This document shows positions 13,188 through 37,025 of a stretch of 64,000 nucleotides of DNA, piece by piece. The notes beneath the pieces are model-generated. The model was given only the letters and a program-made list of their open reading frames with translations. It was not told the DNA's origin and searched no databases. The stretch is from Pseudofrankia coriaricola. Its GTDB lineage: Bacteria; Actinomycetota; Actinomycetes; Frankiales; Frankiaceae. How positions within the stretch are numbered: the stretch's first letter is position 1; each line of letters starts with the position of its first letter. The stretch spans positions 124,001 through 188,000 of the forward strand of contig NZ_MBLO01000210.1 in assembly GCF_001854805.1 (NCBI RefSeq), read 5' to 3'. The position numbers were made by a program, and so were the translations under genes.

Positions 13188-13334
13188 TGACAGGACCCGC
13201 CGGATCGGCGGAACCCGGTCCCTACCGGATCGGCGGAACCCGCGGTTCCTGCCGGATCGCGGAGCGATCTGGGAGGTCTGCTGGGAGGCTTCTGGCGGGT
13301 GTCTGCTGGGAGGTCAGCGATCTGAGGTCAGACT
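13188..13334. repeat. Cluster of family A elements downstream of rplS
   Basis: Partial units GGATCGGCGGAACCCGGTCC are followed by a full unit at 13244-13279 (GGTTCCTGCCGGATCG, CGGAGCGATCTGGGAGGTC) and then by repeats of the tail CTGCTGGGAGG. The same head-repeat plus tail-repeat structure occurs after ffh and near coaD. Confidence 0.85.
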
Positions 13335-20391: not shown

Positions 20392-20629
20392 CCTTCCAGC
20401 CCTCGCGAGTCGAGGTCGTCCCGCCCCAAGCACCGCCATGGCCACAGCGCCTGCATCACGCCAACACAGCCACCTCAGTAGGTGCGATGCCGCTCCGACG
20501 AGCAAGGCGCACACCTTCCAGCCCGGCGAGCCGAGGTCGTCCCGCCCCAAGCACCGCCATGGCCAAAGCACCTGCACCCGCCAGCCCAACCTCAGTAGGT
20601 GCGATATCGCTCCGACGAGCAAGGCGCGC
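20392..20629. repeat. 122-bp tandem duplication between smc and ftsY
   Basis: Two copies start at 20392 and 20514 with CCTTCCAGCCC and end in GCTCCGACGAGCAAGGCGC, period 122 and most positions identical (for example CGAGGTCGTCCCGCCCCAAG in both). The second copy runs straight into the family B element that follows smc. The promoter of ftsY should be in or near this array. Confidence 0.85.
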
Positions 20630-20805
20630 AACCCAGCCACAGATGGTGACGGCGCATCAGCGCGGCGCCAAGCCAGCCACCTCGTCAGCCCGGGATCGGC
20701 CCCACCACCGCCATAAGCCAGGGCCCGGAACCACGTGGGGAGGGCGCTCTGCGCCCGACAGGCTGCGCCCGGCGGCGGGCGCGGAGCGTCCGCCGCGGGA
20801 CAGCC
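20626..20805 (-). repeat. Family B element after smc
   Basis: Read on the smc strand, the element starts at the base after the stop with GGCTGTCCCGCGGCGGACGC, continues through GCCGCCGGGCGCAGCCTGTC and CCCTCCCCACGTGGTTCCGG, and ends in TGTGGCTGGGTTGCG, about 180 bases. Copies with the same limits follow recG and rpmB. It contains GC-rich hairpins and may form a structured 3' RNA end. Confidence 0.85.
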
Positions 20806-23800
20806 TCAGGCGGAGGCCCGCTCGCGCAGCCGCTGGCTGATCACCGTGGTCACACCGTCACCGCGCATCGAGACTCCGTACAACGCGTCGGCGATCTCCA
20901 TGGTGCGTTTCTGGTGCGTAATGATGATCAGCTGCGACTTCTGCCTGAGCCCCTCGACGGCGTTCAGCAGGCGGCCGAGGTTGCGGTCGTCGAGCGCCGC
21001 CTCGACCTCGTCGAGGACGTAGAACGGCGACGGCCGGGCCCGGAAGATCGCCAACAGCATCGCGAGGGCGGTCAGCGAGCGCTCGCCGCCGGACAGCAGT
21101 GACAGCCGCTTGACCTTCTTGCCCGGCGGGCGGGCCTCCACCTCGATTCCGGTCGTGAGCATGTCCTCGGGGTCGGTGAGCACGAGCCGGCCCTCGCCGC
21201 CGGGGAACAGCGTGTCGAAGACGATCTCGAACTCGCGGGCGGTGTCCTGGAACGCGGCGGCGAACACCTCGCGGACCCGGGAGTCGACCTCCTCGACGAC
21301 GAGCAACAGGTCGCGCCGGGTGTTCTTGATGTCGTCGAGCTGCGCGGACAGGAACGCGGCCCGCTCCTGCAGGGCCTCGAACTCCTCGAGGGCGAGCGGG
21401 TTGATCTTCCCAAGCCGAACCAGCTGCTTCTCCGCGGTGGCGAGCCTCGCGGTCTGCTCGGCGCGGTCGAAGGGCCGCTCCTTGCCGCCCTCCTCGTCCG
21501 GCGGTACCGGCAGCGCGGGGCCGTACTCGGTGACCAGGTCGTCGGCGGCGATGCCGTGCTCCTCCAGCGCCTTGGCCTCGAGCGCCTCGGACCGCAGCCG
21601 CTTGGCCTCCCGGGCCAGCTCGTCCCGGTGAGCCTCGTCGCGCAGCGCGGACAGTGCCGCGGCGTAGGCGCGCACCCGGTCGCGCACTCCGGCGAGCTCG
21701 GTGTCGGTCGCCCGGCGGGCGGTCTCCGCCTGCTCCCGCTCAGCCGCCGCGGCGGCCAGCGAGGTCTCGCAGGCGGCGAGCGCCTGATCGGCCGCGGCCG
21801 CGACGGCGGCGGCGATCTTCGCCTGCCGCTCGCGCAGCGCCCGGGTGCGGGCGGCCGCGGCGCGGGCGGCGCGTTCCTGGGCGGCCTGGCGCAGCAGGGC
21901 GTCGGCCCGCCCGGCGAGCCCGCGGGCGCGCTCCTCGCTGGTGCGCACCGCGAGCCTGGCCTCGACCTCCTCGCCCCGGACCGCGGCCGTGGCGGCGACG
22001 AGCCGGTCGCGCTCCTCGGCCGACCGCTCGTCGACGTCCAGCTCGTCGTCGCTCGCCGCGAGTGCCGCCTCGAGCTCGGCGAGCGCGCCGTAGGTCTGGT
22101 CGCGCGTCGCCTCGGCGGCGAGCCGGCCGCGTTCCAACCGGCTGATCTCCCCGGCGACGGAGCCCCTGCCCCGGTCCAGCTGGGCGAGCTGGTCGGTCAG
22201 CGCCCGGTGGCGGGCGCCGGCGGCGGAGCGGTCGGCGTTGGCCGCGTCGATCGCGGCCCTGGTCCTGGCGACCTCCTCGCGGGCGGGCTCCATGGCGGTG
22301 CGCGACGCCTCAGCCCGCGCCTCGGCGGTGGCCATCGCGACCGCGGCCTCCTCCGCGGCGGCGGCGAGCTCGAGCAGCGAGGGCGCGTGCGCGCTGCCGC
22401 CGACCGCGGCCGGCGGGCCAAGGGTGTCGCCATCGCGGGTCACCAGCCGAAGCCCGGGCCGGGCCGCGGCGAGCCTGGCGGCGCCGGCCAGGTCGTCGAC
22501 GACGACGACCCCGCCGAGGATGGCGGCCACGGCCGGCGCGAACCGCTGGTCGACGACCCGCACGAGCTCCAGCGCCGGCACGGCCTCGGCAGGCAGGCCG
22601 TCGGCGAGCTCGCCGGCGGCCGGCGGGGCGGGCGGCGGAAACGCGGGGACGAAGGCGGCCCGGCCGGCCTCGGCGGTCCGCAGCCAGCTCAGGGCGGTGA
22701 CCACGTCGTCGACGGACCCGACGGCGAGCGCGTCGGCGGCCGGCCCCAGGGCGGCGGCGATCGCCACCTCCGCGCCCGGCGTGACCGCGAGGATGTTCAC
22801 CAACCGCCCGAAGATCTGGATCGGGGTCCGCGGCGGTTCGAACACCCGCGCGGGCTCGGCTGGTCGCCCCTGCTTGCCCTTGCCAGCCGCTCTGCCCCCG
22901 CCGGCTCGCCCGCCACCCGTGCCTCCGGGCTCGGATCCACCGGTCTGGGAGGAAGCCCGCGCCTGGCCGCCGCCTCGCTCGTCCGTGGCGTCGCCGGTGG
23001 CCGTGAGCAGCGCGGCGGCGCCGTCGGCCGGGGCCAGCGACAGCGAGAGCGCGTCCCGGCGGGCGGCGGCCGACGCGCGGTCCCGGTCGGCGCCGCGCTC
23101 CTGGGTCCGCAGCGCCTCCAGCCGCTCGGTCGCCGCGGTGTGCAGGGCGATGGCCGACTCGTGCCGGCCGGCCAGTTCGTCCCGCTCCGTCTCGATCCTG
23201 GCGAGCTCTGTGTCGAGCGCCTCACGCGAGCCGCTGGCCTCGGCGTCGCGGGCCTGAGCCGCGTCGAGCGCCTCGGTAAGCCGGACGATGTCGGACTCCG
23301 CCGCCGCCGCGCGGGAGCGGGCCGTCTCGACCTTGCCCGCGAGCCTGGCGATGCCCTCGCGCCGGGCCGCGGCGGCGCGGCTCGCGGTGAGCAGGGCCTG
23401 CTCCTCCGCGGCGAGGGCGGCTTCCAGCTCGGCGCGCCGGCTCACGACCTCGGTCAGCGTGTCCCGGTCGCGTTCCAGACGGGCCTGCAGCGCGGCCTCG
23501 CGCTCGTGAACGGCCGCCGCCTCCTGCTCCAGTTCCTCGGGGTCGCGCCCGCCCCGGGTGGCCTGGGCGCCGGCTCGCAGCAGCCGGGCGCGCTCGGTGG
23601 CCAGCTGGCCGGTGCCCCGCAGCCGCTCGCGCACCGACGAGAGGGCGTACCAGGTCTCCTGGGCGGCGGCGGCGCGGGGGACGATCCGGGCGAGCTCGGC
23701 CTCGAGCGCCTGCTCCCGCTCGGCGGCGGCGGCGTGGGCGCCCTCGGTCTCGGCAAGCTTGGCCCGGACGGTCTCCTCGTCGGCGATGTCGGCGGCGAGC

Positions 23801-24519
23801 TCCGTCCGCGCGGTGACCAGGTCGTCGGCGAGCAGCCGCAGCCGCGCGTCGCGCAGCGTCGCCTGGATGACGCCAGCCTTGCGGGCGATCTCGGCCTGCC
23901 GGCCCAGCGGGCCCAGTTGGCGGCGCAGCTCGGCGGACAGGTCGGTCAGCCGGGTGAGGTTGGCGGCCATCGCCTCCAGCTTGCGAAGCGCCTTCTCCTT
24001 GCGCTTGCGGTGTTTGAGGACGCCCGCGGCCTCCTCGATGAACGCCCGGCGCTCCTCGGGGCTCGCGTGCAGCACGGCGTCCAGCTGCCCCTGTCCGACG
24101 ATCACGTGCAGCTCGCGGCCGATCCCGGAGTCGCTCATGAGCTCCTGGATGTCCAGCAGCCGGCAGGAGGTGCCATTGATCGTGTACTCGCTCTGGCCGC
24201 TGCGGAACATCAGCCGCCCGACCGTGACCTCGCTGTACTCGATGGGCAGCGCGCCATCGGAGTTGTCGATCGTCAGCAACACCTCGGCGCGGCCCAGCGG
24301 CGGCCGCGACGGCGTCCCGGCGAAGATGACGTCGGACATCGTGCCGCCACGCAGCGCCTTCGCGCCCTGCTCCCCGAGTACCCAGGCCATCGCGTCGACG
24401 ACGTTGCTCTTGCCCGAGCCGTTGGGCCCGACGACACAGGTGATCCCCGGCTCGAGGCGCAGCGTCGTCGAGCTCGCGAAGGACTTGAAGCCCCGCAGTG
24501 TCAGGCTCTTGAGGTACAC
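20806..24519 (-). CDS. smc: Chromosome partition protein SMC
   Basis: SMC forms the ring-shaped condensin with ScpA/B. The 1237-residue protein has the N-terminal ATPase half (GPNGSGKSN near residue 32), a long coiled coil, the hinge (about 520-690), a second coiled coil, and the C-terminal half with LSGGERSLTALAMLL and FYVLDEVEAALDD. A Gly/Ala/Arg-rich insertion of about 50 residues precedes the hinge core and includes a partial family A copy. I chose GTG at 24519 (VYLKSLTLRGFKSFA is the family N-terminus); GGAG is 4-5 bases upstream. A long antisense open frame over the gene is a GC-bias shadow. Confidence 0.97.
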   Translation of the reverse strand: MYLKSLTLRGFKSFASSTTLRLEPGITCVVGPNGSGKSNVVDAMAWVLGEQGAKALRGGTMSDVIFAGTPSRPPLGRAEVLLTIDNSDGALPIEYSEVTVGRLMFRSGQSEYTINGTSCRLLDIQELMSDSGIGRELHVIVGQGQLDAVLHASPEERRAFIEEAAGVLKHRKRKEKALRKLEAMAANLTRLTDLSAELRRQLGPLGRQAEIARKAGVIQATLRDARLRLLADDLVTARTELAADIADEETVRAKLAETEGAHAAAAEREQALEAELARIVPRAAAAQETWYALSSVRERLRGTGQLATERARLLRAGAQATRGGRDPEELEQEAAAVHEREAALQARLERDRDTLTEVVSRRAELEAALAAEEQALLTASRAAAARREGIARLAGKVETARSRAAAAESDIVRLTEALDAAQARDAEASGSREALDTELARIETERDELAGRHESAIALHTAATERLEALRTQERGADRDRASAAARRDALSLSLAPADGAAALLTATGDATDERGGGQARASSQTGGSEPGGTGGGRAGGGRAAGKGKQGRPAEPARVFEPPRTPIQIFGRLVNILAVTPGAEVAIAAALGPAADALAVGSVDDVVTALSWLRTAEAGRAAFVPAFPPPAPPAAGELADGLPAEAVPALELVRVVDQRFAPAVAAILGGVVVVDDLAGAARLAAARPGLRLVTRDGDTLGPPAAVGGSAHAPSLLELAAAAEEAAVAMATAEARAEASRTAMEPAREEVARTRAAIDAANADRSAAGARHRALTDQLAQLDRGRGSVAGEISRLERGRLAAEATRDQTYGALAELEAALAASDDELDVDERSAEERDRLVAATAAVRGEEVEARLAVRTSEERARGLAGRADALLRQAAQERAARAAAARTRALRERQAKIAAAVAAAADQALAACETSLAAAAAEREQAETARRATDTELAGVRDRVRAYAAALSALRDEAHRDELAREAKRLRSEALEAKALEEHGIAADDLVTEYGPALPVPPDEEGGKERPFDRAEQTARLATAEKQLVRLGKINPLALEEFEALQERAAFLSAQLDDIKNTRRDLLLVVEEVDSRVREVFAAAFQDTAREFEIVFDTLFPGGEGRLVLTDPEDMLTTGIEVEARPPGKKVKRLSLLSGGERSLTALAMLLAIFRARPSPFYVLDEVEAALDDRNLGRLLNAVEGLRQKSQLIIITHQKRTMEIADALYGVSMRGDGVTTVISQRLRERASA
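22934..22960. repeat. Partial family A element inside smc
   Basis: The bases CCGGTCTGGGAGGAAGCCCG match one arm and tail of the element. In the smc frame they give SSQTGGSEP, inside a low-complexity insertion just before the hinge domain. Confidence 0.6.
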
Positions 24520-25697
24520 CGGTCTCCGCAGCGATGGGGCGGTCGTGGTCGGGCCCGAAGGTCGCCCTCCGGATGAGCGCCGCGGTGCGCCGGAAACCGG
24601 ACCGACGATCTTCGCCGCGACCGGCCGCCGATCAGGATGCCGATCAAGGACCATGGGCGCCGGCACCGCGGCCGGCCCGCATCCGGGCCGCCGCCAACGA
24701 TATCCGCCAACTCACTGTCACGAACAGGACACGCCACTGTGCGCACGGAGTGGCCAGAACGCGATAGTCTGCCCGGCACCATCAGACTCACGCCGGGACA
24801 CCAAGATCCGTAGATCACGGACATGCGTGCCCCACGCGGCCATCAACCACAGCGCGATCCCGCTCGGCCGGCCGTCGGCAACCTGGCACGACCCCGCCGA
24901 ACCGGCCCGGGCCCGTCGCCAGGGTTGTCGGACACGTGGGTGTGCATGGTTGGAACGACAGGAGTAGGCACCCCACGAGAAGGGCAGCACTGACCCGAGG
25001 CGGGTGACCCGCCCGGCGACGCCGTCCAGCGGCCCGCGATGCGACGGCGATCTCCGGACCCGGAGAGCTCGTCGAGCCACGGAGCGGCTACGACAGCCAC
25101 GAGAGCACGCGAACCGGTGGGCACGGACCGGACCCTCGTCGACATACCGCGGGGAGGCTCACAAGGAAACCACTCCCAAACCGACGGCCACGAGGCAGGC
25201 CGGAAGCCGAAGCGCCACGACGACATCCCGCCGGAGCGGACAGGCCAATGGGGACGTACCGGCCGGAAGCCCCAGAGGACCTCACCGACCAAGCACGATC
25301 ACCGGGCCCACGGCAGCCGCGAACGCCCCGCAGGTGCGCCCACAAAACCGAGACGCCGCCGTCGGATCTTCACCCGACGAGGCGCGACGGCGAGCAGAAC
25401 GGACAACTCCAGACCCGTACACCCACGCCACGGCGAGACCGTCGGGCCACGAGCGAGCGGGTGGCGGAGCCGATCTCCGGCCGACCCTGGGCACACGTAA
25501 CGTCGCCCGAGGGTCGATCGACAAGATCGTTGGTCCGGGTAGCCAGCTCCGAGAACCGTCCGGGCGTTCGAGGATCCTTCAGCGATCCGAGAACAGACCG
25601 AGTGAGACTCGGCCTGAGGGTTCCAGGAGGCGGCCCCCAGCGAGACGTCTGACCCGACGCCTGGCGAAGCCGCTCGAAAGGCGGCTAAGAGGTCAGG
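24520..25697. other. Long spacer upstream of smc
   Basis: This is the longest gene-poor stretch of the window, 1178 bases. Open frames exist on both strands (for example 25004-25771, plus), but none has a good ribosome binding site, a recognisable domain or normal amino-acid balance. A small inverted repeat CCGAG-TGAGA-CTCGG is at 25606-25620. The smc promoter must be here. Confidence 0.5.
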
Positions 25698-25892
25698 TCA
25701 GGTCAGGGCCGGTTCGACGTCCAGCTCGCGGACGTCCTCAGGGACGTCAACGCCGACGAGCGCGTCGTTGACGTCACGCGTCCGGGCGAGCTCAGCCTCG
25801 AGCTCGGCTACGCGGGCACGCAGCCGACGTACCTCGTACGAAAGCCGGAGGTCGTTGCCGGAACCGACGTGGCCGAAAAGGGCCTTCGCCAT
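25698..25892 (-). CDS. Small conserved coiled-coil protein
   Basis: A 64-residue protein starting MAKALFGHVGSGNDLRLSYE, followed by a short coiled coil (VRRLRARVAELEAELARTR) and an acidic tail. Similar small proteins beginning MAKALxGHVG are, to my knowledge, conserved in actinobacteria; function unknown. Start is firm: GGAGGA 8 bases before ATG. It lies alone between smc and acyP. Confidence 0.85.
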   Translation of the reverse strand: MAKALFGHVGSGNDLRLSYEVRRLRARVAELEAELARTRDVNDALVGVDVPEDVRELDVEPALT

Positions 25893-26208
25893 GGTGATGG
25901 TCCTCCACGATGAGTGACCTTGCGGGATGCTGGGCGCGACAAAGCCCGGGACGAAGCCGGTAGACTCGTCCCTCCAACCACTGGTGTTACTCCAGCCGCT
26001 GGTCTACTCCGGCCAGCGTGCGTGACCTTGCGCCACGCACGTAGACGGAGTCCGCCCCAAAGAATGACCTAAGGTTCCCACACCCGGTCACCGAAAGTCA
26101 AGAGCATGCCACATGGCAGGGCATCCGTCCCTGAAACACGGGAATCTTGAGCCTCGTTTTGACCCGGCCGTCAGGCCTGTCTGTCCAGGTCAACGGGGTG
26201 CCGACGGC
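25893..26208. other. Spacer between acyP and the small coiled-coil gene
   Basis: These 316 bases contain no gene I can support. The promoter for the small coiled-coil gene is expected here; TTGACT occurs on its strand (complement of 26091-26096), but no -10 lies at a normal distance. Confidence 0.4.
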
Positions 26209-26574
26209 TCAGCGGCGCACAAACCCAGTCATGCCGCCTATCGCGGCACCGATCGTGTGTTCTACCCGATCGGTCCGCCCGGGGGTATGGCCGGTTACAA
26301 GGAGTTCCAGCAGCGCCTCGCAGGCGTCCGCCGGCCCCTCAGCCACGACATCGACTCCGCTGTCCGCGCGGTTGGTCGCCGAGCCCACCAGGCCGAGGCG
26401 GCGGCCCTTTGTGCGTACGTAGTCCCGGAATCCGACACCCTGCACCAGGCCGAACACGGTGGCGGTCAGCCGCACGCGTGCGCCCGCGTCGGCCGTCTCC
26501 CGCGCCTGGTCACCGCCGGTGTTCGCCGGTCCACCGGGCTCGACCGGCGGCCACTTCTGAGGAAGGTCATTCAT
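26209..26574 (-). CDS. acyP: Acylphosphatase
   Basis: Acylphosphatase hydrolyses carboxyl-phosphate bonds in small molecules such as acetyl or carbamoyl phosphate. The domain runs from about residue 35: VRLTATVFGLVQGVGFRDYV, with the catalytic Arg in GFRDYV and the catalytic Asn expected in GSATNRADSGVDVVAEG. The first 33 residues are not conserved, and ATG 26574, GTG 26580 and an internal GTG are all possible starts. The position between mutM and smc is typical of actinobacteria. Confidence 0.88.
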   Translation of the reverse strand: MNDLPQKWPPVEPGGPANTGGDQARETADAGARVRLTATVFGLVQGVGFRDYVRTKGRRLGLVGSATNRADSGVDVVAEGPADACEALLELLVTGHTPGRTDRVEHTIGAAIGGMTGFVRR

Positions 26575-26599
26575 CGGCACGGTAGGCTACTGAGCCATC

Positions 26600-26908
26600 G
26601 TGAACACGACATCTCTCCTCCTCAGCAGCCTGGCCCGGCGTGCCGCCCGGCCTGGCCGAAGCGCCGCGGTGGCGGCCATCGCAGTCGGGGCCGTCAGCTG
26701 CTCGATGCTGCTCGCCGGCTGTGGCCAGAACTTCCAACAGGACGGCGGCTCCGTGCCGGTGCCACGAGCCACGATCGTGGACGGGCCCAGCGCGACCCCG
26801 TTCGGCAACCCGAACGCGGTACCCGCGCCGAGCGACGGCTACGCGCCCCCGCGCACGGCCGGCCCGACCCAGACCGCCGCCCCGAACCTCCCTGGCGGCA
26901 AGCTCTAA
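26600..26908 (+). CDS. Small lipoprotein
   Basis: A 102-residue predicted lipoprotein: an Arg-rich N-terminus, hydrophobic segment (AAVAAIAVGAVSCSMLLAGC) with lipobox LLAGC, then a short Pro/Ala-rich exported part. No domain is recognised. GTG at 26600 lies 12 bases after TAGGCT (26583-26588), a possible -10 box, so the mRNA may be leaderless. It is divergent from acyP. Confidence 0.7.
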   Translation: MNTTSLLLSSLARRAARPGRSAAVAAIAVGAVSCSMLLAGCGQNFQQDGGSVPVPRATIVDGPSATPFGNPNAVPAPSDGYAPPRTAGPTQTAAPNLPGGKL

Positions 26909-26954
26909 GATCTCCCGATTCCGGGCGATCCCACTGTCCCGTTGGACGCTTGCC

Positions 26955-27698
26955 TCAACCGAGGGCACGACGGGCGGTTGGCGTCTCGACCCGGCCCTGG
27001 GTGCCGAGGTCGGCGCGCTGGCCGGCGCTGTAACCGGCATGGCCGCCGGAGCCGGACAGCTGACGTCCACGCGCCGCCCGCAGCTGCGGATAGACGCTCG
27101 CCAGGTGCGCCTCGACCCGGGAGGAGCGGTCGGCGAGCACAAGTGCCACCGAGGCCCCAGAGCCGGACTTTCCGGTTTCCGGCTCGGCCGCGGCCCTGGC
27201 GGCCTGTTCCGCGGCCGTCAGCCGCTGCTGCACGGCGACCGCGAACCCCGCCATCCAGGACCGGCGAAACGCCCGTGGGTCCTCCCAGGACGGGGGCACC
27301 GCGACAGCGATCCCGTGTGCCTGCTGGACGAGCAGCGAGGTGAACAGCAGCTGCGCCCTGGTGAGATCGGCCTCCATGCCGAACAGGTGCGCGGTGTGGC
27401 CGGTGCGCCCCTGCTGCCGCTCGGTGCGGTGCACCAGCCGGCAGCCCAGCGGCGCGACGATGCTGGCCAATAGAGTGATCTTGTCCCGCGCATATGGGGG
27501 GTGGATGTCGAGCACCAGGTCGGCGGCGGCGACCTTGCTCGGCCCGGCCTCCTCGAGCAGCGCACGGTCGATGCCGTACTGGGCGATCAGCTCGGCGGCC
27601 TTGGCGTTGTAGGTCTCCCTGGCCGCGTCGGTCAGCCCCTCGGCCTCGGCCATCGCGAGCAGTTTGCGTACCCGGCCGAGCAGGGCGTCCGAGTTCAT
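26955..27698 (-). CDS. DUF2786 domain protein
   Basis: The N-terminal 40 residues (LLGRVRKLLAMAEAEGLTDA, ARETYNAKAAELIAQYGID) match the DUF2786 domain known from phage and actinobacterial proteins of unknown function. The central part (KITLLASIVAPLGCRLVH, HLFGMEADLTRAQLLFTSLL) is the DUF7168-like companion often fused to it. The protein is 247 residues; ATG at 27698 has AGGAGA 6 bases upstream. It is probably cytoplasmic and has no obvious operon partner. Confidence 0.85.
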   Translation of the reverse strand: MNSDALLGRVRKLLAMAEAEGLTDAARETYNAKAAELIAQYGIDRALLEEAGPSKVAAADLVLDIHPPYARDKITLLASIVAPLGCRLVHRTERQQGRTGHTAHLFGMEADLTRAQLLFTSLLVQQAHGIAVAVPPSWEDPRAFRRSWMAGFAVAVQQRLTAAEQAARAAAEPETGKSGSGASVALVLADRSSRVEAHLASVYPQLRAARGRQLSGSGGHAGYSAGQRADLGTQGRVETPTARRALG

Positions 27699-28148
27699 GG
27701 GTCGTCTCCTTCGTCGACGCCGAGCACGGTCCATGGGCCAGATCGCGGACCGTCCGCTGACGAGCGGACCGGGTCAGGGTGCGCGGGCGGCATCCCTCGC
27801 GGTCCGCTCACGGGTCGTCCGCGACCCGCTGGCACGCCGTCAGGGTCCCCGGCCACCCGACCCGGTGGGCCCCCGGATGCGGCCCCTGAAGGGCGCTCAG
27901 GTTCCCGCGGTGCCCGACTCGCCGGGGCGCACCTGGTCAGGCCCAGTGTGGGTGCCGGCATGACCCTACGGACATCGGGGGGTGCACCCCCCGAATCGAC
28001 ACCCCACCGGGACTGGCGAAGAATCGTTGACGGCGCCGAACGCGGCCGGGTTCCTGCCGGCTGGGCCTACTTCGGCTGGACCTACCGGTAGGCCAGCGCA
28101 CGTTCGCCCAAGCCGGCACGACGGGCGTCGCCACGTCGGGCCGGCGGC
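27699..28148. other. mutM to DUF2786 spacer
   Basis: No gene is supported in these 450 bases. They contain a perfect palindrome at 27975-27994, inverted repeats around CGGGTCG/CGACCCG near 27815, and a decayed family A-like piece near 28050 (GGTTCCTGCCGGCTGGGCC). Confidence 0.5.
27975..27994. repeat. Perfect 20-bp palindrome
   Basis: TCGGGGGGTGCACCCCCCGA reads the same on both strands. It could be a protein-binding operator or part of a hairpin about 155 bases downstream of mutM. Confidence 0.75.
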
Positions 28149-29069
28149 CTACCAGCGGCCGCCGCGAGGGCGGGGCTGGCAGGTGGGGCAGGTGAAGCTG
28201 GATCTGTTCATGAACGCGTCGCGGCGGATCTGGCTCGCGCACCGCCGGCACGGCGCTCCCTCGCGGCCGTAGGCCGCGAGCTCCCGCTCGAACAGTCCGC
28301 TGACACCCTCGGTGGAGACATAAAGCTGGTCGAACGACGTGCCGCCGGCCTCGAGCGCCGCGGTCAGCACGGCACGCACCTCGGCGAGCAGGCCGCGGGC
28401 TTCGGACCGTCGCAGGGTGTCGGTCCCCCTCGCGTAGTGCAGTCCGGCTGCCCACAGGGCCTCGTCGGCGTAGATGTTGCCGATGCCGCTGACCAGCCGC
28501 TGATCGAGCAGCGCCCGCTTGAGCCCGGTACGGCGAGCCCCGAGCCCGGCCACGAAGGCGTCGTCGTCGAACAGCGGGTCCAGCGGGTCGCGGGCGATGT
28601 GGGCGATCGGGTCGGGCAACGACGCTCCCCCCGCCACGATCGCCATCCCCCCGAACGTCCGCTGGTCGACGAACCGGAGCTCGCGGCCGCCGTCGGTGAA
28701 GGTGAAGCGGATCCGCAGGTGGGTCTGGTCCGGCGTGCTCGGCGGCACGACAAGCAGCTGGCCGCTCATGCCGAGATGCCCGAGCAGCGCGTCACCGTCC
28801 TCGGCCGGCCGGAGCGGGGCGGGCAACTCGCCGGGCACGCCCGGAGTGTCCAGGTCACCTGGGGCCGCGAGCGCCAGCCACAGGTACTTGCCCCGGCGGC
28901 GGGCAGCCGTGATCGTCTGGCCGATGAGCGCCGCCTCGAAGTCGGCGGCGCCCGTCACGTGCCGGCGCACGGCGCGCGGGTGCAGCACACTCACTTTCGC
29001 GATCGTGCGGCCGACCACGCCGCGTTCCAGGCCGCGCCGTACCACCTCGACCTCGGGCAGTTCTGGCAT
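28149..29069 (-). CDS. mutM: Formamidopyrimidine-DNA glycosylase
   Basis: MutM (Fpg) excises oxidised purines such as 8-oxoG. The catalytic N-terminus PELPEVE is present (Pro2, Glu3), as are GRRGK-type RRRGKYLWL with the conserved Lys, LGHLGMSG, the H2TH helix region ([18 protein letters not shown]) and the C-terminal zinc finger CRRC...CPTC. 306 residues. It starts 3 bases after the rnc stop on the same strand, and the rnc-mutM order is standard. Confidence 0.97.
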
Positions 29070-29072
29070 GGC

Positions 29073-30122
29073 TCAGCCCGGCTCCCCCGCGGGCGCGGGA
29101 GCAGCAGCCTCGGCGCTGGCCATCCGTGCCAGCGGGTCCGTGAGACCGGCCTCCGGCGGCGTCGGGGACGGGCCGGCCGGGCCGCCGTCGCCTGGCAGGC
29201 CCGAAGCATCGGCGGTGGCCGCGGCAACGGAGGTGGCCGGAGCAAGGCCCTGGAGGGCTACGAACGCATGCTCGGCCGCGCGCTGCTCGGCCTCCTTCTT
29301 GCTGCCCCCCTCGCCCTCGCCGTAGATCCGGTCGGAGATGCGAGCTCTCGCCCGGAACCTCTTGGCGTGATCCGGGCCGGAGTCGGTGACCACGTAGTCG
29401 GGCGGGCCCATCCCCAGTTCGGCGGTGCGCTCCTGCAGGGAGGTCTTCCAGTCGAGGCCCGCGCCGCGGCCGGCCGCCTCGTCGAGGAGCGGGTCGAAGT
29501 GGCGGTGCACGAACTCCGAGGCGACCTCGAGCCCGAGCTCCAGGTAGACCGCGCCGATGAGAGCCTCGAGCGTGTCGGCGAGGATGCTCGGCTTGTCCCG
29601 GCCCCCCGTGGTCTCCTCGCCCTTGCCGAGCAGCAGATAGGGGCCGATGCCCGCCGGGCCGATGTCGCGGGCGACGGCGGCGAGCGCCCGCATGTTCACC
29701 ACCGAGGCCCGTTGCTTGGCCAGCGCACCCTCGGCAAGGTCCGGGTGGCGCCGGTAGAGCGCATCGGTGACGACCAGCTGAAGCACGGCGTCGCCGAGAA
29801 ACTCCAGCCGTTCGTTGGTAGGCAGGTTGCCGTTCTCGTAGGCGTACGACCGGTGGGTGAGCGCCCGGTCGAGCAGCCTGGGGTCGAGGCGCAGGTCGAG
29901 CGCGGTGAGCAGCCCCTCACGGCCCTGCGGGACCGTCGCGCCGCGGCTCACCGTCTCTCGGGTTCGCTCCGTCGCCGCACTCCTCGCTCCCCCGGTCGTC
30001 GCATCCGCGCCGAACGGGGACCCCTGCTCGCGGCCGTCCTCCGGGGTTCCTGCCGGATCGACGGAGTCGATCTGGGAGGTCCGCCTCGGACGACCACTCC
30101 GCTCGCTTGCTCCTGCGCTCAC
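29073..30122 (-). CDS. rnc: Ribonuclease III with a repeat-bearing N-terminal extension
   Basis: RNase III cuts double-stranded RNA, including rRNA precursors. The catalytic domain starts near residue 72 and has [16 protein letters not shown] (signature) and [15 protein letters not shown] with the metal ligands; the dsRNA-binding domain follows ([30 protein letters not shown]), then an Ala/Pro tail. I chose GTG at 30122 because it overlaps the plsX stop (GTGA). The N-terminal extension of about 70 residues holds a family A copy coding [12 protein letters not shown]. Length 349 against about 240 usual. Confidence 0.93.
30043..30082. repeat. Family A element inside rnc
   Basis: The copy reads GGGGTTCCTGCCGGATCGAC, GGAGTCGATCTGGGAGGTCC. 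In the rnc frame it codes [15 protein letters not shown]. It lies near residues 13-26, before the catalytic domain. Confidence 0.88.
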
Positions 30123-31153
30123 AGCGACAGCCCCGCGATCGCTCTGCGCCGGGCGATCAGGCGGGCGAGCTCGGCGCGGATCTGGGCGACGAGCCCGCCC
30201 CGCCATACCGTCGCCGCCGTCGCGAGCGCCGCCGGAATGCCGGTGGAAAGGTCGTCCGGGCCGCCGACGGGGTCGCCCGCCCGCACCGCGACACCGTCCA
30301 CTCCCAACACGATCGTCCCCCCCTGCAGATCCGCGCCGGCCGGGCTACGCCAGGCCGGGTCGAGCCCCGTCGGCGTCTCCGGGAAGGCAGTCGTTGCCGC
30401 CGTCCTGACCGCCCGCAGACATGCCAGCACGACGTCGCCGGTGAACCCGTCGGTCACGACGACGTCGGGACCTTTGCCGGTCACCGTGCCAGCCTGGCCG
30501 GTGTCGACCAGCACTCCGGCGTCCACCTGGCCGACGTAGTCGACGCCAAGCGTGCCGAGCAGCCCGTGCGCCGCCCGGCGCATCGTGTCCGGCAGCGCGG
30601 GGCGGGCGGCGAGCAAGCCAACCCGCGGCTCACCGGAACCGGCACGCACCCTGGCGTAGGCCGCCCCGGCCAGCGCGAACTGGGCAAGGTCGTCCGCGGC
30701 CACGTCGACGGACGCGCCGGCGTCACACAGCACGATGCCTGGCGCGTGACCGACGTCCACGACGGCCGCCAGCGACGCCCTGGTGGCGCCGGGCAGCAGG
30801 CCGAAGGTGAACAGCGCCGCCGCGGCGACCGCCTCGGGCGGCGCGACCGAGACCATCGCGTCGGCGCGCCCGTCCCGGACCAGCCGGGCGGCCACGCGCA
30901 CGCCGCTGTCCCGCCGCGCGCGCACGTCACGGACGGCGTCGGCGCCGGCGGGGATGCCCCGCGCGGCGGTCACCAGGTGGACGCGATCGCCGGTCACAAT
31001 GCCGCGGCCGGCCAGGTCTTCGGCCGTCGGGCCTGGCGGGACGACGAGCGTGACCACCAGCTCCGGATCGGCATCCAGCGCGGCAGGCAGAGCGTCCAGC
31101 ACCGATTCCGGTGGGACGCCCTCCCCGAGGAGGTCTACGGCGACGCGGATCAC
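30119..31153 (-). CDS. plsX: PlsX-family protein (divergent phosphate acyltransferase)
   Basis: PlsX makes acyl-phosphate from acyl-ACP for phospholipid synthesis. Position (rpmF-plsX-rnc) and overall shape support the family: [15 protein letters not shown] at the N-terminus, [19 protein letters not shown] and a C-terminal [10 protein letters not shown]-type helix region. Motifs of normal PlsX have changed: DAMGGD is DLLGEG, and the SxGNTGA loop reads SVAPPEA. Activity is therefore uncertain. GTG at 31153 starts 7 bases after the rpmF stop; 344 residues. Confidence 0.8.
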
Positions 31154-31160
31154 GTCAAGA

Positions 31161-31331
31161 TCAGACGTCGAGCACCTGTCGGTCGTTGTACCGGCCGCAG
31201 GTCGGGCAGGCGTTGTGCTGCCGGACCACGTGCCCACGCGGGCAGCGCGACAACGCCGGCAGCGTCGCCTTCCACTGTGCCCGCCGAGACCGGGTGTTGC
31301 TGCGCGACATCCGCCGCTTCGGGACGGCCAC
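31161..31331 (-). CDS. rpmF: 50S ribosomal protein L32 (zinc form)
   Basis: A 56-residue L32 starting [20 protein letters not shown]. Cys residues in SRCPRGH and NACPTCGRY form the zinc-binding set, so this is the C+ (zinc-containing) form rather than a zinc-starvation paralog. The GTG shares one base with the DUF177 stop (TAGTG), and GGAG is just upstream within the end of that gene. Confidence 0.96.
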
Positions 31332-31966
31332 TAGTCCTTCTCCTTCGTTTCCCGCCCGGCGACGTCGCCGACGGATCCAGCTTGGGTCAATGCCGACAGC
31401 GCGGCCCACCGGGGGTCGGCACTGTCGTGGGAGTGGTCTGGGCCGACCTCGTCCAGCCGCGCGCCGCAGTCGACGCACAGGCCAGCGCAGTCGGGGCGGC
31501 ACAGCGGTGAGAGCGGCAGGTCGAGGACCAGGGCATCCCGCACGACCGGCGCCAGGTCGAGGTGGTCGTCCACGATCACGAGCACGTCCTCGTCCTCGTC
31601 GTCGATCTCGGCGGCCCGGTCGGGGTAGTAGAACAGCTCGCGCAGCTCGACGGACACGTGATCGTGCACCTCGTCCAGGCAGCGCGAGCACTCACCGACC
31701 AGGTCGGCCGACACCGTTCCGCTGACCAGCACGCCCTCGTGGACGGACTCGAGCCGGAGGTCCAGCTCTACCGGGCCGCCCTGCGGCACTCGCAGTACCG
31801 GCGTGCCCAGCTCGTTCGGCGCGAGCGCCCTCGTGACGACAGGCCTCATCGACCCCGGCCGACGGCCCAGCTCACGGGTGTCGAGCACAAAGGGGCCACG
31901 GGGGGTCTGACGGCGGGGACGGTGGTGTCCGGTCATCGCTTGTCCGGTCAAGGCTGCGGAGTTCAC
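31331..31966 (-). CDS. DUF177/YceD family protein
   Basis: YceD-type proteins sit before rpmF in most bacteria and are linked to 23S rRNA and fatty-acid gene regulation. The motif set is present: [21 protein letters not shown] near the middle, ELFYYPD, and [19 protein letters not shown] with four cysteines. The protein is 211 residues from GTG at 31966; ATG at 31936 is an alternative, and neither has a strong ribosome binding site. Confidence 0.9.
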
Positions 31967-32390
31967 GGGATCTCATCAAGGTGGTGGTTGCTGGAGCGCA
32001 TCTGGAAGCCACCGGCTCCAGGCACGGATAACTAGCCTATCCGATCCCAGCTTCCAACCCGGTCCCGGCCAACTCGACGCACCACCTCACCGATGCGAGG
32101 GCGCCCCAGCGCCCGGCAGGCACCGCGGCGTCCCCGCCGGATCCGGCGGAGCCCGGGGTCCCTTCCGGATCGCGGAGCCGGGGTCCCTGCCGGATCGCGG
32201 AGCGATCTGGGGGGTCTGCTGGGAGGTCTGCTGGGGTCTGCTGGCAGGTCCAGGTCGGTGCAGGCGACCGTCCCCGTCAGCGTCGCCCTAGGAGACCGCC
32301 GAATGACTCGGGACCGCGCCGGGCTCGTCCCAGGTTTGCCCCGATCGACCTATGCGGACGGACTCTGGCGAGTCGGGCCGCCGGAGCTAC
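31967..32390. other. coaD to DUF177 spacer
   Basis: Besides the family A cluster (32131-32252) I see no gene in these 424 bases. Confidence 0.5.
32131..32252. repeat. Cluster of family A elements
   Basis: Head units (CCCCGCCGGATCCGGCGGAG, GTCCCTTCCGGATCGCGGAG) lead to a full unit at 32180-32216 (GTCCCTGCCGGATCGCGGAG, CGATCTGGGGGGTC) and three tail units of CTGCTGGGAGGT type. The order head-head-full-tail-tail matches the clusters near rplS and ffh. Confidence 0.87.
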
Positions 32391-32888
32391 TTATTCGGCG
32401 GTCTCCTGGAGCCGTTCGCGCAGGTGCTTGAGGACGACGTCGGGGACCAGGCCGCTGACGTCGCCGCCGTAGCGGGCGACATCCTTGACCAGGCTCGAGG
32501 ACAGGAACGCGTACTGCGGGTTCGTGCTCATGAACAGCGTCTCGACCCCGGCCAGCCGGTTGTTCATCTGCGCCATCTGCAGCTCGTAGTCGAAGTCGCT
32601 CACCGCACGCAGACCCTTGACGATCGACATGACGCCGTGTGCCTGGCAGAAGTCGACCAGAAGCCCATGTGACGTCTCCACGACGACGTTGGCCGTCGCC
32701 TGCGGATGGTCACGCACAGCCTCACGGATGAGTTCCATCCGTTCCTCGACGGTGAACAGCGTCGTCTTCGTCTTGTTGATCGACACCGCGACGATGACCT
32801 CGTCGAAGAGCTTGCTCGCCCGCATGATGATGTCGAGATGGCCGTTCGTGATCGGGTCGAATGAACCAGGACAGACAGCCCTCCTCAT
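32391..32888 (-). CDS. coaD: Phosphopantetheine adenylyltransferase
   Basis: CoaD makes dephospho-CoA from ATP and 4'-phosphopantetheine. The 165-residue protein starts MRRAVCPGSFDPITNGHLD, with the nucleotidyl-transferase TNGH motif, and has KGLRAVSDFDYELQMAQMN and the C-terminal FLSSSLVKDVARYGGDVSG. The ATG overlaps the rsmD stop (ATGA), which fixes the start. The rsmD-coaD pair is standard. Confidence 0.97.
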   Translation of the reverse strand: MRRAVCPGSFDPITNGHLDIIMRASKLFDEVIVAVSINKTKTTLFTVEERMELIREAVRDHPQATANVVVETSHGLLVDFCQAHGVMSIVKGLRAVSDFDYELQMAQMNNRLAGVETLFMSTNPQYAFLSSSLVKDVARYGGDVSGLVPDVVLKHLRERLQETAE

Positions 32889-33442
32889 GATCGAGAACCG
32901 TACCAGAGGACGGCCTCCCCGTACCCCCTCGAACGGAGCTCGGTCACACCGTCTGGCCAGGTCGGGGGCGGCGAACGGCGAGTTCGCTCGACCACACAGA
33001 CACCGTCCCTGTTCAGCCAGCACTGATCTACGAGCTGACGGAGCACCTCGGCGAGCCGAACGTCGTCAAGCGCGTACGGAGGGTCCAGGAAAACCACGTC
33101 GTAGGGCTGCCCGACAGTGGCGTCCACCACACGCTCCACGGCGCCCACGACGACCTCGGCGCCGGCGAGGCCCAACTCGGTGGCGTTACGCCGCGCGACC
33201 CTCGCCGCCGCCGGGTCACGCTCGACGAGCAGGGCATGCTTGGCGCCCCGCGACAGCGCCTCCAGGCCGACCGCCCCGCTGCCCGCGTACAGGTCGGCCA
33301 CCCGGGCACCCGACAGGTCGACAAGGGTCGCCAACGTGTTGAAAAGTCCCTCCCGCGCTCGGTCCGAGGTGGGTCTGGTCCCCATTCCCGGCGGCACGGC
33401 GAGCCGGCGCCCACCCGCGACCCCACCCACGATCCGCGTCAT
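32885..33442 (-). CDS. rsmD: 16S rRNA (guanine966-N2)-methyltransferase RsmD
   Basis: RsmD methylates G966 of 16S rRNA. Signatures are TRIVGGVAGGRRL, PTSDRAREGLFNTL, VADLYAGSGAVGLEALSRGA (SAM site) and VFLDPPYAL (catalytic DPPY). ATG at 33442 has GGAGG 10 bases upstream; an upstream TTG at 33451 is in frame. It is co-translated with coaD. Confidence 0.95.
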   Translation of the reverse strand: MTRIVGGVAGGRRLAVPPGMGTRPTSDRAREGLFNTLATLVDLSGARVADLYAGSGAVGLEALSRGAKHALLVERDPAAARVARRNATELGLAGAEVVVGAVERVVDATVGQPYDVVFLDPPYALDDVRLAEVLRQLVDQCWLNRDGVCVVERTRRSPPPTWPDGVTELRSRGYGEAVLWYGSRS

Positions 33443-33506
33443 CCGGTCCAAGCCTCCGGCCGATCAAGCGACATCATCAGCCGCGACCTGCTCTGATAGG
33501 CGATCA

Positions 33507-33726
33507 GCGCAACCCAGCCACCACAAGTGACAGCGCATCGGCGCACCACCAACCCAGCCACCTCCCCGACCCCGACTCAGGCCGACCCCGGCCATACGCA
33601 TCAGCCCCGAATCCAGGCTAGGAGGGCGCTCTGGCGCCCGACAGGCGCCGCCCGGCCGGGGTCCCTGCCGGATCGCGAAGCGATCTGGGAGGTCTGGGGC
33701 GCGAAGCGTCCGGCCGCGGGAGCGCC
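33507..33726 (-). repeat. Family B element after recG, carrying an inserted family A copy
   Basis: On the recG strand the element begins right after the TAG stop with GGCGCTCCCGCGGCCGGACG and CTTCGCGCCC, is interrupted by a family A copy (33657-33699), resumes with GGCGGCGCCTGTCGGGCGCC, and ends in TGGTGGCTGGGTTGCGC. Without the 43-base insertion it is about 177 bases, the same size as the smc and rpmB copies. Confidence 0.85.
33657..33699. repeat. Family A element nested in family B
   Basis: The copy reads GGGGTCCCTGCCGGATCGCG, AAGCGATCTGGGAGGTCTGG. The family B sequence resumes on both sides, so this looks like an insertion event with clear boundaries. Confidence 0.87.
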
Positions 33727-36012
33727 CTAGCCCTTCTCGAGGTACTCGACGGGACGGTCGTCCAGGGCCAGCGCGACGCGGCGGGCCAGGGCCGGGTGGG
33801 AGGCGAGATCCGGGTCGGTGGCGACGAGACGGCCGGACTCCTCCCGGGCATCCAGGATCAGCCGCTCGTCCTTGAGCAGCTCCAGCAGGCGCACCGTGCG
33901 GCTCCGGCCGGACTGGCTCGCGCCCAGCACATCCCCCTCACGGCGCTGGCCCAGGTCGAGGCGGGCGAGCTCGGCGCCGTCGGTGGTGGCCGCGACGTTC
34001 GCGAGCCGCTGCGTGGCCGGCGTGTCGCCGTCGACCTCCGTGTGTAGCAGGCAGACGCCGGCGGCCTCCCCACGCCCGACCCGCCCGCGAAGCTGGTGGA
34101 GCTGGGAGACGCCGAACCGGTCCGCGTCCATGATGGCGATCACCGTCGCGTTGGGGACGTCCACGCCCACCTCGATCACGGTCGTCGCGACCAGCACGTC
34201 GACCTCGCCGGCCGCGAACCTGGTCATCACCGCGTCCTTGACGTCCGTCGGCAGCCGGCCGTGCAGCGCGGCGACCCGCAGACCAGCGAGCGGCCCCTCG
34301 GCGAGCCAGGGCAGCAGCTCCTCGACTCCAACCCCGGCGAGCGAACCCGCTCCATCGCCGAAACCGAGCTCATCGGCGCGGCCGCCCGCCTCCGCGGCGG
34401 GCGGACCCGTCCGCGACCCCGGTGGACGGCCCGGCGTGGTTCCGCTCGGTCCGTCCTCCGGCTCGAGCGGGTCCTCGTCATCGTCCTGGCCGGCCGCCAC
34501 AGAGCTGATCCGTGGGCATACGACGTACGCCTGGTGACCGGCGGCCACCTCGTCACGGATGCGGCCCCAGATCCGGTCACGCCAGCTCGGATGCGCGGCC
34601 GCGTCCACGACGAACGTGGCGATCGGCGACCGGCCGGCCGGCAGCTGGGTGAGCGTGGAGACCTCGAGGTCACCGAACACCGTCATCGCGACCGTGCGCG
34701 GGATCGGCGTAGCCGTCATCACCAGCACATGTGGGGGGTCGGTGGCCCGGGTACGCAGCGCGTCGCGCTGCTCGACCCCGAAGCGGTGCTGCTCGTCCAC
34801 CACGACGAGCCCCAGATCGCGGAAGGCGACACCCTCGTGCAGCAGCGCGTGCGTGCCGATCACCAGACCGGCGCCGCCGTCGGCGGCCGCCGCCAGCGCC
34901 TCCCGCTTCGCCCGGGCGCCGAGCGAGCCCGTGACCAGCGCGACCCTGGTCGCCGGCGGGGTCTCGTCCAGCTCCCCCGCCCGGCCGAATCCGCCCAGCA
35001 GGGCACGGATACCCCGGTAGTGCTGGACCGCGAGGGTCTCCGTCGGCGCGAGCAGGGCGGCCTGGCCGCCGGCGTCGACGACGGTGAGCATCGCCCGCAG
35101 CGCGACCACCGTCTTGCCCGATCCGACCTCGCCCTGCAGCAGCCGGTGCATCGGGACCGGCTCGGCGAGCTCGGCCTGGAGCGTCGCCCCGACCTCGCGC
35201 TGGCCGTCGGTGAGCGTGAACGGAAGCTGGGCGTCGAAGGCCGTCAGGATCCCGTCGGGGCGAGCCCGGCGGGCGATCGTCGCCATGGCCGAGATCTCGT
35301 GGCGGCGGCGGGCGAGGATCACCTGCAGCGTCATCGCCTCGTCCCACTTCAGCCGCCGGTGGGCCCGCTCGACGTCGCCCGTCGACTCCGGTTGGTGCAC
35401 CAGCTCGTAGGCCTTGCGCAGGTCGACCAGCCGGTAGCGGGCCCGCAGGTCGGCGGGCAGCGGATCGGCCAGCTCGCCCAGCCCGCCGAGCAGCACCCGC
35501 ACGCAGCGACCGATCGCCGGCGAGTTGACCTGCTCGGTGGCCGGGTAGATCGGCACCAGCGCCCGGGCCCACCGGTCCGGGTCGTCGCCAGGGCCGTCAT
35601 CGTCCTCCAGCGGGTGCGTCTCCGGGTTGACCATCTGCAGGCGTTGGTTGAACCGCTCGACCTTGCCGGAGAACACCGCCACCGAGCCGCCGGACAGCCG
35701 GCGGACCGGCGACCTGGCTGGGTTGAAGTAGGTGACGGCCATCTGGGCGGTCCCGTCCGTCACGGTCAGGACCGCGTAGCGCCGTCCGGTGCGAGCAGTC
35801 TTGCTCTCGGACCTGACGACCCGCGCATGCACGGTGGAGACCTCGCCCTCGACGAGGTCGGCGAGGTTGGTCAGCTCCCCACGCCGGTGGTAGCGCCGCG
35901 GCAGGTGCTCGAGCAGGTCGGCGACGGTGACCAGCTCTAGCGGGCGCTCGCCCAGCCGCTTCGCGTCCTTCGCCGGCAGCAGGTGCCGCAGCGGGGTGTC
36001 CAGCTCGATCAC
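33727..36012 (-). CDS. recG: ATP-dependent DNA helicase RecG
   Basis: RecG reverses stalled forks and processes branched DNA. The wedge (OB) domain is in residues 50-200 ([17 protein letters not shown]). Helicase motifs are [59 protein letters not shown] and [14 protein letters not shown]. An Asp/Glu/Gly/Pro-rich insertion of about 45 residues lies between helicase lobes 1 and 2. I chose GTG at 36012 ([12 protein letters not shown]); 761 residues. It is divergent from rpmB. Confidence 0.95.
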
Positions 36013-36309
36013 ATTCCCGATACTGCACCCGGACAGCGACAGTCTGGCGCCGCGTGCCGCCTGGCCGCGCCGCCCGCCGCGACTCGCGGGCACCTCAGGG
36101 AACCCGCGGGGACCCACGGCGGCCCAGGCACCAGTCGCGCTGTCTCTGCGGTAGCCTTCAGTGAGTACCGCCGTGTCCGGGTTGTTTCGGCGCCCGTTCG
36201 GCACCACTCGTCCGCCGGCATCCGCCCGTGGGCGGGCGCCAGCGGCGGGCCAGCGCGGCCGGAACCCCGGCCACGGCTTCATCAACAACCTCTCGGCGGA
36301 GTGTTTCTC

Positions 36310-36498
36310 GTGTCTTCGGTGTGCGACGTCTGCGGCAAGGGACCGGGCTTCGGCATGTCGGTCTCCCACTCCCACCGGCGCACGCGGCGGCGTTGGAACC
36401 CCAACATCCAGACCGTGCATGCCCTCGTCGGCCGCACCCCCAAGCGCCTGAACGTGTGCACCTCGTGCATCAAGGCGGGCAAGGTGACCCGCGCATAG
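36310..36498 (+). CDS. rpmB: 50S ribosomal protein L28 (zinc form)
   Basis: A 62-residue L28: [20 protein letters not shown], followed by [12 protein letters not shown] and [15 protein letters not shown]. The two CxxC pairs mark the zinc-binding C+ form. GTG at 36310 has GGAG 8 bases upstream. It is divergent from recG; the gene for a DAK-type phosphatase that often lies between them in actinobacteria is absent here. Confidence 0.96.
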
Positions 36499-36680
36499 CG
36501 CTGTCCCGCGCCGGACGCTTCGCGCCCGCCGCCGGGCGCAGCCTGTCGGACGCTGAGCGTCCTCCCCACGTGGTTCCGGACCCTGGCATATGGCGGTGGT
36601 AGTGCCTGGTTTCGGGCTGGCGAGGTGGCCGGCTTTGACGCAGCGCTGAGGCGCCGTCACTTTCTGTGGCTAGGTTGCGT
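36499..36680 (+). repeat. Family B element after rpmB
   Basis: It begins at the base after the rpmB stop: CGCTGTCCCGCGCCGGACGC, TTCGCGCCCGCCGCCGGGCG, then CCTCCCCACGTGGTTCCGGA, and ends TTCTGTGGCTAGGTTGCG. It aligns end to end with the element after smc. A strong terminator follows at once. Confidence 0.87.
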
Positions 36681-37025
36681 ACATAGCTCGCTAAAGAGGC
36701 GCCACGTGCGTGGCGCCTCTTTCTTGTCCGGTGATGGCGCTTATCCGGTGATGGCACGAATGCCCGCCGGCTGACGCCTCGCGCCCGACGAGGTGGCCGG
36801 CAGGCTGGCCCCCTGGCTCAGGCCGGTCTTCGCCGGGGGCGGACGAGGCGGCGCGGAGCCGAGGAACACTCCCGTCGTAGGACGCTTCGCGCCGGTGACC
36901 GGGGATGGAGACAACGGCTCACCACCGACCGGCGATCAGGCAGGTGCCCCTGACGATCCGCCGACCCAGGCGTGCTGATATGAGAGGGATCGTTTCTCGG
37001 ACCCTCTTGTACCGGAGCCGCCGAC
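36681..37025. other. Spacer between rpmB end and the SCP2 gene
   Basis: Apart from the terminator (36693-36722), I see no gene in this stretch of 345 bases. The promoter of the SCP2 gene is expected near 36975-37000 (TGATATGAGAGGG), but no clear pair of boxes was found. Confidence 0.45.
36693..36722 (+). terminator. Strong intrinsic terminator after rpmB
   Basis: A perfect 14-bp stem: AAAGAGGCGCCACG at 36693-36706 pairs with CGTGGCGCCTCTTT at 36709-36722 around a two-base loop, followed by CTTG. The arms end in A-run and T-run, so it can act on both strands. Confidence 0.9.

Follow-up and report, generated by a model that had tools for sequence, protein, structure and literature searches.

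The 64-kb window, the whole stretch of DNA analysed here, is part of contig C210 of the 11.2 Mb draft genome of Pseudofrankia coriaricola (G000; the other Pseudofrankia genomes are numbered G001 to G007). It carries the genes smc, recG and rpmB, and behind each of them lies one copy of a palindromic element. The RecG encoded in the window is 94% identical to that of Pseudofrankia asymbiotica. An earlier note on this DNA had claimed that three copies begin at the first base after these stop codons, in sense orientation, and all three junctions read as claimed. Each feature below is given by its window coordinates and strand; H1 and H2 are the first and second hairpins of the element, and UTR stands for untranslated region.

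20806..20808, minus: smc stop codon TGA, the 5' junction of copy 1 (from the sequence; open reading frame 20806-24666, minus)
20555..20805, minus: copy 1, running about 251 nt from the smc stop up to the native 3'UTR (the 3' end as read from the alignment)
20761..20805, minus: H1 of copy 1, GGCTG...CAGCC (covariation; model match)
20742..20756, minus: H2 of copy 1, GGGCGCAGAGCGCCC, 3' of the linker TGTC (sequence, covariation)
20392..20627, minus: 121-nt tandem duplication spanning the 3' tail of copy 1 and the native smc 3'UTR
33727..33729, minus: recG stop codon TAG, the 5' junction of copy 2 (sequence)
33507..33726, minus: copy 2 behind recG, 3' end approximate (sequence; model match; relatives empty)
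about 33656..33696, minus: palindrome of a second family, A, nested in H1 of copy 2
36499..36692, plus: copy 3, from the rpmB stop codon (TAG) to the native rpmB terminator (sequence; orthologous copy in G006)
36499..36543, plus: H1 of copy 3 (covariation; model match)
36548..36562, plus: H2 of copy 3, GGACGCTGAGCGTCC (sequence; covariation)
36693..36722, plus: native rpmB intrinsic terminator, AAAGAGGCGCC...GGCGCCTCTTT, retained 3' of copy 3
about 18550..18862, minus: a fourth copy, decayed, with nested family A repeats and not at a stop codon

If the element begins at the stop codon, where does it end? The earlier note had given it 180 bases and closed it at a motif shared by the three copies. 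Neither statement survives the alignment at smc, as we read it: the native 3'UTR resumes only about 251 nt past the stop, and the unit is correspondingly larger. The conserved blocks that the note named fail for the copy behind recG, which has neither of the two. A covariance model matches all three copies, at 36499-36563(+), 20741-20805(-) and 33623-33726(-); the smc and rpmB copies were in its training set and the recG copy, which is longer because of the family A palindrome nested in its H1, was not. A hairpin resembling the rpmB terminator is present at the empty site in P. asymbiotica, and the site of the decayed window copy holds a fresh copy in G006. At 1940-1978 the window has a short hairpin, GTCGGGCGCTTCGCGCCCTC, with a weak model match (29.6 bits); it is perhaps a remnant.

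We then have a sample from the rest of G000. It comprises 93 segments (582 kb), fetched mostly around motif or BLAST matches and picked regardless of the junction, and yields 106 clusters and 40 copies whose H1 has a readable 5' end; it is a sample and not a complete census. The typical layout among these 40 copies is H1, linker, H2, core and a degenerate tail. In most of them H1 is a long hairpin with the foot GGC...GCC. The linker from H1 to H2 is mostly TGTC, with the variants GGTC, CGTC, TATC and CTC; the consensus of H2 is GGGCGCTGAGCGCCC; the core reads CCCCACGTGGTTCCGG..., ...GTGGCTGGGTTGGCACTGCGCTGATGCGCCGTCAC...GTGGCTGGGTTGCG; and the degenerate 3' tail may close in a hairpin such as GACATCCGAGCCCATGGGATGTC. 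No terminal inverted repeats were noted. The exact H2 motif occurs at 93 sites in G000, against none for a reversed-pattern control, and a similarity search of the same genome gave at least 49 matches (40 of 324 candidates scored). As many dispersed palindromes in one genome, these copies are repetitive extragenic palindromes (REPs) in the broad sense. One subfamily, X, has a different first hairpin and is found in several older copies, at their TGTC linker; it is younger than these hosts.

How often does a copy begin at a stop codon? Gene calls here are our own codon-usage scores and not annotation; rpmB, whose score of only 0.01 fails to call it, was entered as a gene by identity. A stop triplet directly precedes H1 in 25 of the 40 copies, two of these being one base out of register, and 22 of these triplets close a gene (21 on codon score, and rpmB); the three stop triplets without coding support are at C253, C25 and C224. 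The share expected at gene stops among noncoding T-purine-N sites is 2.0% (binomial probability 2.4e-27 for 22/40). The triplets before H1 are TGA (10), TAG (8), TAA (5), TAC, TGG and TGC (4 each) and others (5); T-purine stands at positions -3 and -2 in 36/40 copies, compared with 6.4% of noncoding positions. Among the 15 copies without a stop triplet, seven lie downstream of opposite-strand coding sequence by score and the others behind sense or unclear stretches. A coding sense frame ends nearby in 59 of the 106 clusters. Directly after the stop, GG is found at 42/59 of these gene ends and at 12/141 other genes (p 8e-19). Could H1 derive from the terminators of the host genes? In 104 genes without H2, drawn from the same contigs (five genes with H2 being left out), the strongest stem of the first 30 positions never begins right after the stop (0/104), which rules this source out.

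One copy, at L044 (G000:C20:4659-7659, minus), follows TGG rather than a stop, and the sense frame continues into the element and ends at an internal TAG. At another locus, L048 (G000:C33:25640-30344), two copies with the same unusual H1 (GACTGACGCGCGG...) face one another about 1.7 kb apart, both near the ends of coding genes.

The preference extends to other species. In an independent sample of 40 covariance-model matches (G001, 16 of 27; G003, 12/25; G004, 7/13; G005, 1/5; G006, 4/12), 13 copies begin no more than 3 nt from a coding stop (p 3e-17, with all noncoding positions as the reference), four hold the stop inside the first arm, two lie 11 and 22 nt past a stop, and the remaining 21 are not near the end of any sense gene. 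The preference for stop codons is real and present in several species, and it is weaker outside G000, since only 13/40 exact and 4/40 internal stops were found in these five genomes. The link to stop codons claimed by the earlier note is thus strong in G000 and less so elsewhere, and it does not extend to all copies.

Is the element structured? We aligned 30 distinct H1–H2 sequences, 26 from G000 and four from G006 and G002. Of 686 cells, 95.0% are paired, and in 10 of the 23 base pairs both sides change. The covariation score is 0.198, against 0.075 (s.d. 0.008) in shuffled alignments and at most 0.071 with the partner slid. With a single exception, the 93 exact H2 sites have either G-C or A-T as the variable pair. 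The arms of H1 may be wholly different between copies and yet complementary, around one apical module (AATCGGCGCTTCGCGCCTCC). The three window copies fold no better than shuffles (z of -0.07, -0.67 and 0.12); single-sequence folding energy is uninformative at the G+C of this DNA, and the structural claim therefore rests on covariation. The covarying pairs for which the earlier note had proposed to fold the alignment are strongly present in both hairpins, and its suggestion of a structured 3'UTR RNA stands as far as the structure goes; the role as RNA is not part of that support. The cues to the strand of the structure conflict: one stem pair (T.G, columns 7 and 43 of A1) favours the sense strand, whereas the A-C opposition in the apex of most H1 copies would read G.T on the opposite strand. 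A scan of the whole window against Rfam at the gathering score, the only one to cover the recG copy, returned two tRNAs only. At the smc copy Rfam gave nothing at E<=1, and at rpmB three sub-threshold matches, the best being ncS54 with 21.2 of 43 bits at 36658-36724.

If the element is mobile, some orthologous gene ends should lack it. Orthologs were sought for 19 G000 gene ends, and those at hand were compared. In G005 all 17 of 17 are empty, from which we conclude that the G000 copies are insertions. In G006, 3 of 18 are filled: those of rpmB, of the C207 gene and of the C220 gene, where the copy has lost H2. G002 has H1–H2 right behind the stop at 3 of 12, smc among them; the smc stop is also filled in G003. 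The recG site is empty in G005 and G006, as is the smc site, and the recG and rpmB ends are empty in all three named relatives; two of these relatives are apparently G005 and G003 themselves. Two sites have different histories. At smc, the cores of G002 and G003 are mutual best matches, and the G000 core is unrelated to them and near other G000 copies. G005 and G006 share a homologous native smc 3'UTR; in G000, parts of this 3'UTR lie beyond the element, and the G000 copy was therefore most likely gained after the split. These core relationships suggest that the smc stop codon has been occupied twice independently, by unrelated subfamilies. Pairs of unrelated copies occupy the C213 site as well, and lie within about 3 nt of each other at the C254 and C207 gene ends. 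At rpmB, in contrast to smc, the cores of G000 and G006 are reciprocal best matches and G005 is empty; the two copies are probably one old insertion that was lost in G005. Ancestral presence, as a rule for all sites, has support at rpmB and none at smc, where G005 and G006 have a native 3'UTR in common. One further copy, behind gene 77318, is common to G000 and G005. The other possibility raised by the earlier note, a mobile element whose target is the gene end, gains from all of this: empty orthologous sites, stop junctions far above chance and unrelated subfamilies at the same stop.

What happens to the stop codon itself? It differs between G000 (filled) and G005 (empty) at 11/17 gene ends, compared with 15/115 other genes (p 1.3e-5), and between G000 and G006 at 8/15, compared with 16/91 (p 0.005). 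TAA is found at 14/59 element gene ends and at 6/141 others (p 9e-5). These comparisons suggest that insertion rewrites the stop codon. The changed-stop figures, including the 7/13 given below, are hand counts that were then tested statistically.

At one gene in particular the pairing reaches into the coding sequence. In gene a, the distal arm of H1 complements the last codons and the stop in three species (pairing by eye): in G000, GTC AGC GAG TAG G pairs with CCTACTCGCT(T)GAC, giving 13 pairs and one bulge; in G002, GTC GAC GAG TAA pairs with TTCCTCGTCGAC, and in G004, GTC AGC GAG TAG with CTACTCGCCGAC, each at 11 of 12 positions. The arm thus changes with the codons of each species, and no more than one mismatch or bulge interrupts the pairing. 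The codons themselves are host sequence, since the empty orthologs in G005, G006 and G007 also carry GTC-x-GAG-stop. In gene b, GAG TGA TGG pairs with CCATCACTC; in gene c, the arm is unlike the codons of three empty orthologs. For gene a, templating, template-switch correction or compensatory selection could each be sufficient.

The element, about 250 nt long, has so far been found only in Pseudofrankia, in seven of the eight genomes searched. With 149 candidates scored per genome, the covariance model gives at least 79 matches in G000, 68 in G002, 27 in G001, 25 in G003, 13 in G004, 12 in G006 and 5 in G005; these are lower bounds, because only part of the candidates in each genome was scored. 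Among the candidates scored there were no matches in G007 or in 27 genomes from other genera of the family. Plasmid and phage collections held no match to one copy, and in viral contigs one 21-base motif had no exact match.

What might move it? Y1_Tnp (PF01797) has no match at E<=0.1 in the seven carrier genomes; drafts may miss genes, though G001, G002 and G006 are in one or two contigs each. The sole Y1 transposase match in the genus, L281 (G007:C610:9267-9632), lies in the one genome without model matches. Mobilisation by REP-associated tyrosine transposases (RAYT) or by IS200, for want of a Y1 match in carriers, finds no support in the genus. Nor did a reverse transcriptase or IS110 carrier emerge: the loci around 9 and 5 matches, respectively, hold no element sequence. 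Isolated 3' tails were followed as traces of an autonomous parent; that at C271 proved to be a 5'-truncated copy, and those at C19 and C180 lie at contig ends. Literature searches turned up no title on an element of this kind, be it in Frankia, in Pseudofrankia or at stop codons, which does not prove its absence from print.

How, then, does the element come to lie behind stop codons? We favour, with a probability of roughly 0.55, a non-autonomous REP-like mobile palindrome that is moved in trans by an enzyme other than a Y1 (RAYT/IS200) transposase and prefers gene stop codons as its tag. A unit with the foot of H1 directly behind a T-purine-N triplet, and then the TGTC linker, H2, core and degenerate 3' hairpin, would insert in one orientation behind T-purine-N, with a strong preference for the stop codon of a gene. 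The stop would then serve as the tag of the element, and insertion would often leave a stop codon different from the ancestral one. Movement would pass through a folded single strand, the stop codon would be what is recognised, and the element, rather than later drift, would be what rewrites it. Several observations weigh against this account. The constant junction with a stop codon of which the earlier note spoke finds no support for the family as a whole: 18/40 copies in G000 are not directly at a gene's stop, and 23/40 copies of the independent sample lack both an exact stop and an internal one. The T-purine tag, too, is weaker in that sample (25/40). The stops of G005 and G006, both empty, also differ from one another above background (7/13, compared with 12/56 other genes; p 0.035), so that the stop change may partly be a property of these gene ends. 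The smc and L002 copies are 94-95% identical, but only up to a sharp break within the unit; gene conversion among resident copies would explain this break no less well than a new insertion, and is a live alternative for some cases. Neither a target duplication nor a clean 3' junction has been established, because at most sites the native 3' flank is difficult to identify. Lastly, no mobilising enzyme was found in searches for Y1, reverse transcriptase and IS110, other transposase families lying outside them.

It is possible, though we doubt it, that the element is instead a functional 3'UTR RNA (a terminator, an exonuclease barrier or a control of translation termination), copied and then kept at stops by selection, with compensatory upkeep of the stems. 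The sense orientation at gene ends would follow, and so might the pairing of the gene a arm with each species' own last codons. At an old shared site (C279/L227/L229) one stem pair is G-C in one species, T.G in another and T-A in a third; at rpmB, the copies of G000 and G006 have a common core and differ by compensated changes in the stem. Such an RNA is harder to reconcile with sites that are often empty in relatives, with the 21 copies of other species that have no sense gene end nearby, and with rpmB, which retains its own terminator downstream; moreover, the single window copies fold like shuffles, no Rfam family was matched, and the G005 copy behind gene 77318 has one broken stem pair. 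The same pairing at gene a, in G000, G002 and G004 and with codons that are host-derived, would be expected if the distal arm of H1 were copied from the host flank by fold-back synthesis, each insertion making an inverted copy of the gene end. The pairing at gene b and the single apical module with wholly different arms point the same way. We nonetheless think this rather unlikely: most of the 40 stems in G000 begin after the stop and are shared element sequence and not host, the gene c arm matches the codons of none of the three empty orthologs, and template-switch correction or selection after insertion would look alike. Rather improbable, too, is the more far-reaching proposal of an element that reads gene ends, with the stop codon as integration tag, H1 rebuilt against the host's last codons and an enzyme class new to palindromic repeats; were it true, every insertion would carry an inverted copy of its own target.

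Two other origins fare worse. A hairpin of variable sequence and conserved structure behind a stop codon resembles a recombination site of the integron-cassette (attC) type, left behind gene ends; such an origin is very improbable, as related genomes have gene ends both with the element and lacking it, and such differences are seen even along one long pair of orthologous contigs. Random insertion into noncoding DNA, without any preference and with copies surviving close to the ends of genes, would account for the many copies between genes. It is scarcely credible when junctions at stop codons outnumber the matched expectation by orders of magnitude and different species have copies at a shared position or no more than about 3 nt from it.

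Why should this matter? REP-type repeats are common in bacterial chromosomes. In Pseudofrankia, a genus of soil bacteria, nature supplies both filled and empty sites, 5' junctions that are sharp, a stop preference that can be measured and the re-use of sites by unrelated subfamilies, which allows a direct search for the mobiliser and the target rule. Should the stop codon be a real tag, the rule of integration would be set by the end of translation and would leave the host gene intact.

Two other kinds of repeat were seen in the window. The palindromes of family A (CGGGGTTCCTGCCGGATCG...CGATCTGGGAGGTCCG) are partly tandem and nested in other repeats, the recG copy included:

9203-9260, 12432-12489, 13218-13297, 18607-18803, 30031-30088, 32126-32250 and 33656-33696: family A repeats

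At 60792-60991, two 102-nt tandem units adjoin two tRNA genes (61012-61084 and 61287-61358).

How does the element compare with known systems? Elements of the miniature inverted-repeat (MITE) and palindrome-associated (PATE) types are short, non-coding and of high copy number, with hairpin-like ends; the present element differs from them in that no terminal inverted repeats were noted, no target duplication is established and no autonomous parent was found in the search made. Elements derived from IS200/IS605 use a Y1 (HUH) transposase and a fixed short target motif, whereas here the carriers have no Y1 match and the triplet before H1 varies. There is a likeness to the GTAG-tagged REPs that go with RAYT: both are palindromes dispersed mostly downstream of genes, with one foot bearing an unpaired tag. 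The foot here is a variable T-purine-N with no fixed GTAG, the unit measures about 250 nt rather than 20-40 nt and comprises a core and two hairpins side by side, the carriers are without a Y1/RAYT match, unrelated subfamilies occupy single stop codons, and one gene shows pairing with host codons. Because the tag and the transposase were both looked for and not found, we do not file the element under this type. For CGTC-tagged REPs, PMC3733652 describes no dedicated transposase as apparent, places them mainly in Proteobacteria and does not contain the word Frankia. They resemble our element in being palindromes with an unpaired motif like GTC (in our element the linker in front of H2, mostly TGTC and at times CGTC) and in the lack of an apparent transposase; the stop-codon foot of H1 lies outside the definition given there. 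In Escherichia coli, PMC12306157 reports REPs within 15 nt of the stop and, from earlier work, ribosome stalling; the closeness of hairpins to stop codons is common to both, and a distance that varies up to 15 nt there is zero at the exact copies here. PMC2817692 is a further source beside these two. We read the element as an unusual REP-like variant, apparently without RAYT, set apart by this apparent absence, by its variable T-purine-N foot and by its double-hairpin unit of about 250 nt.

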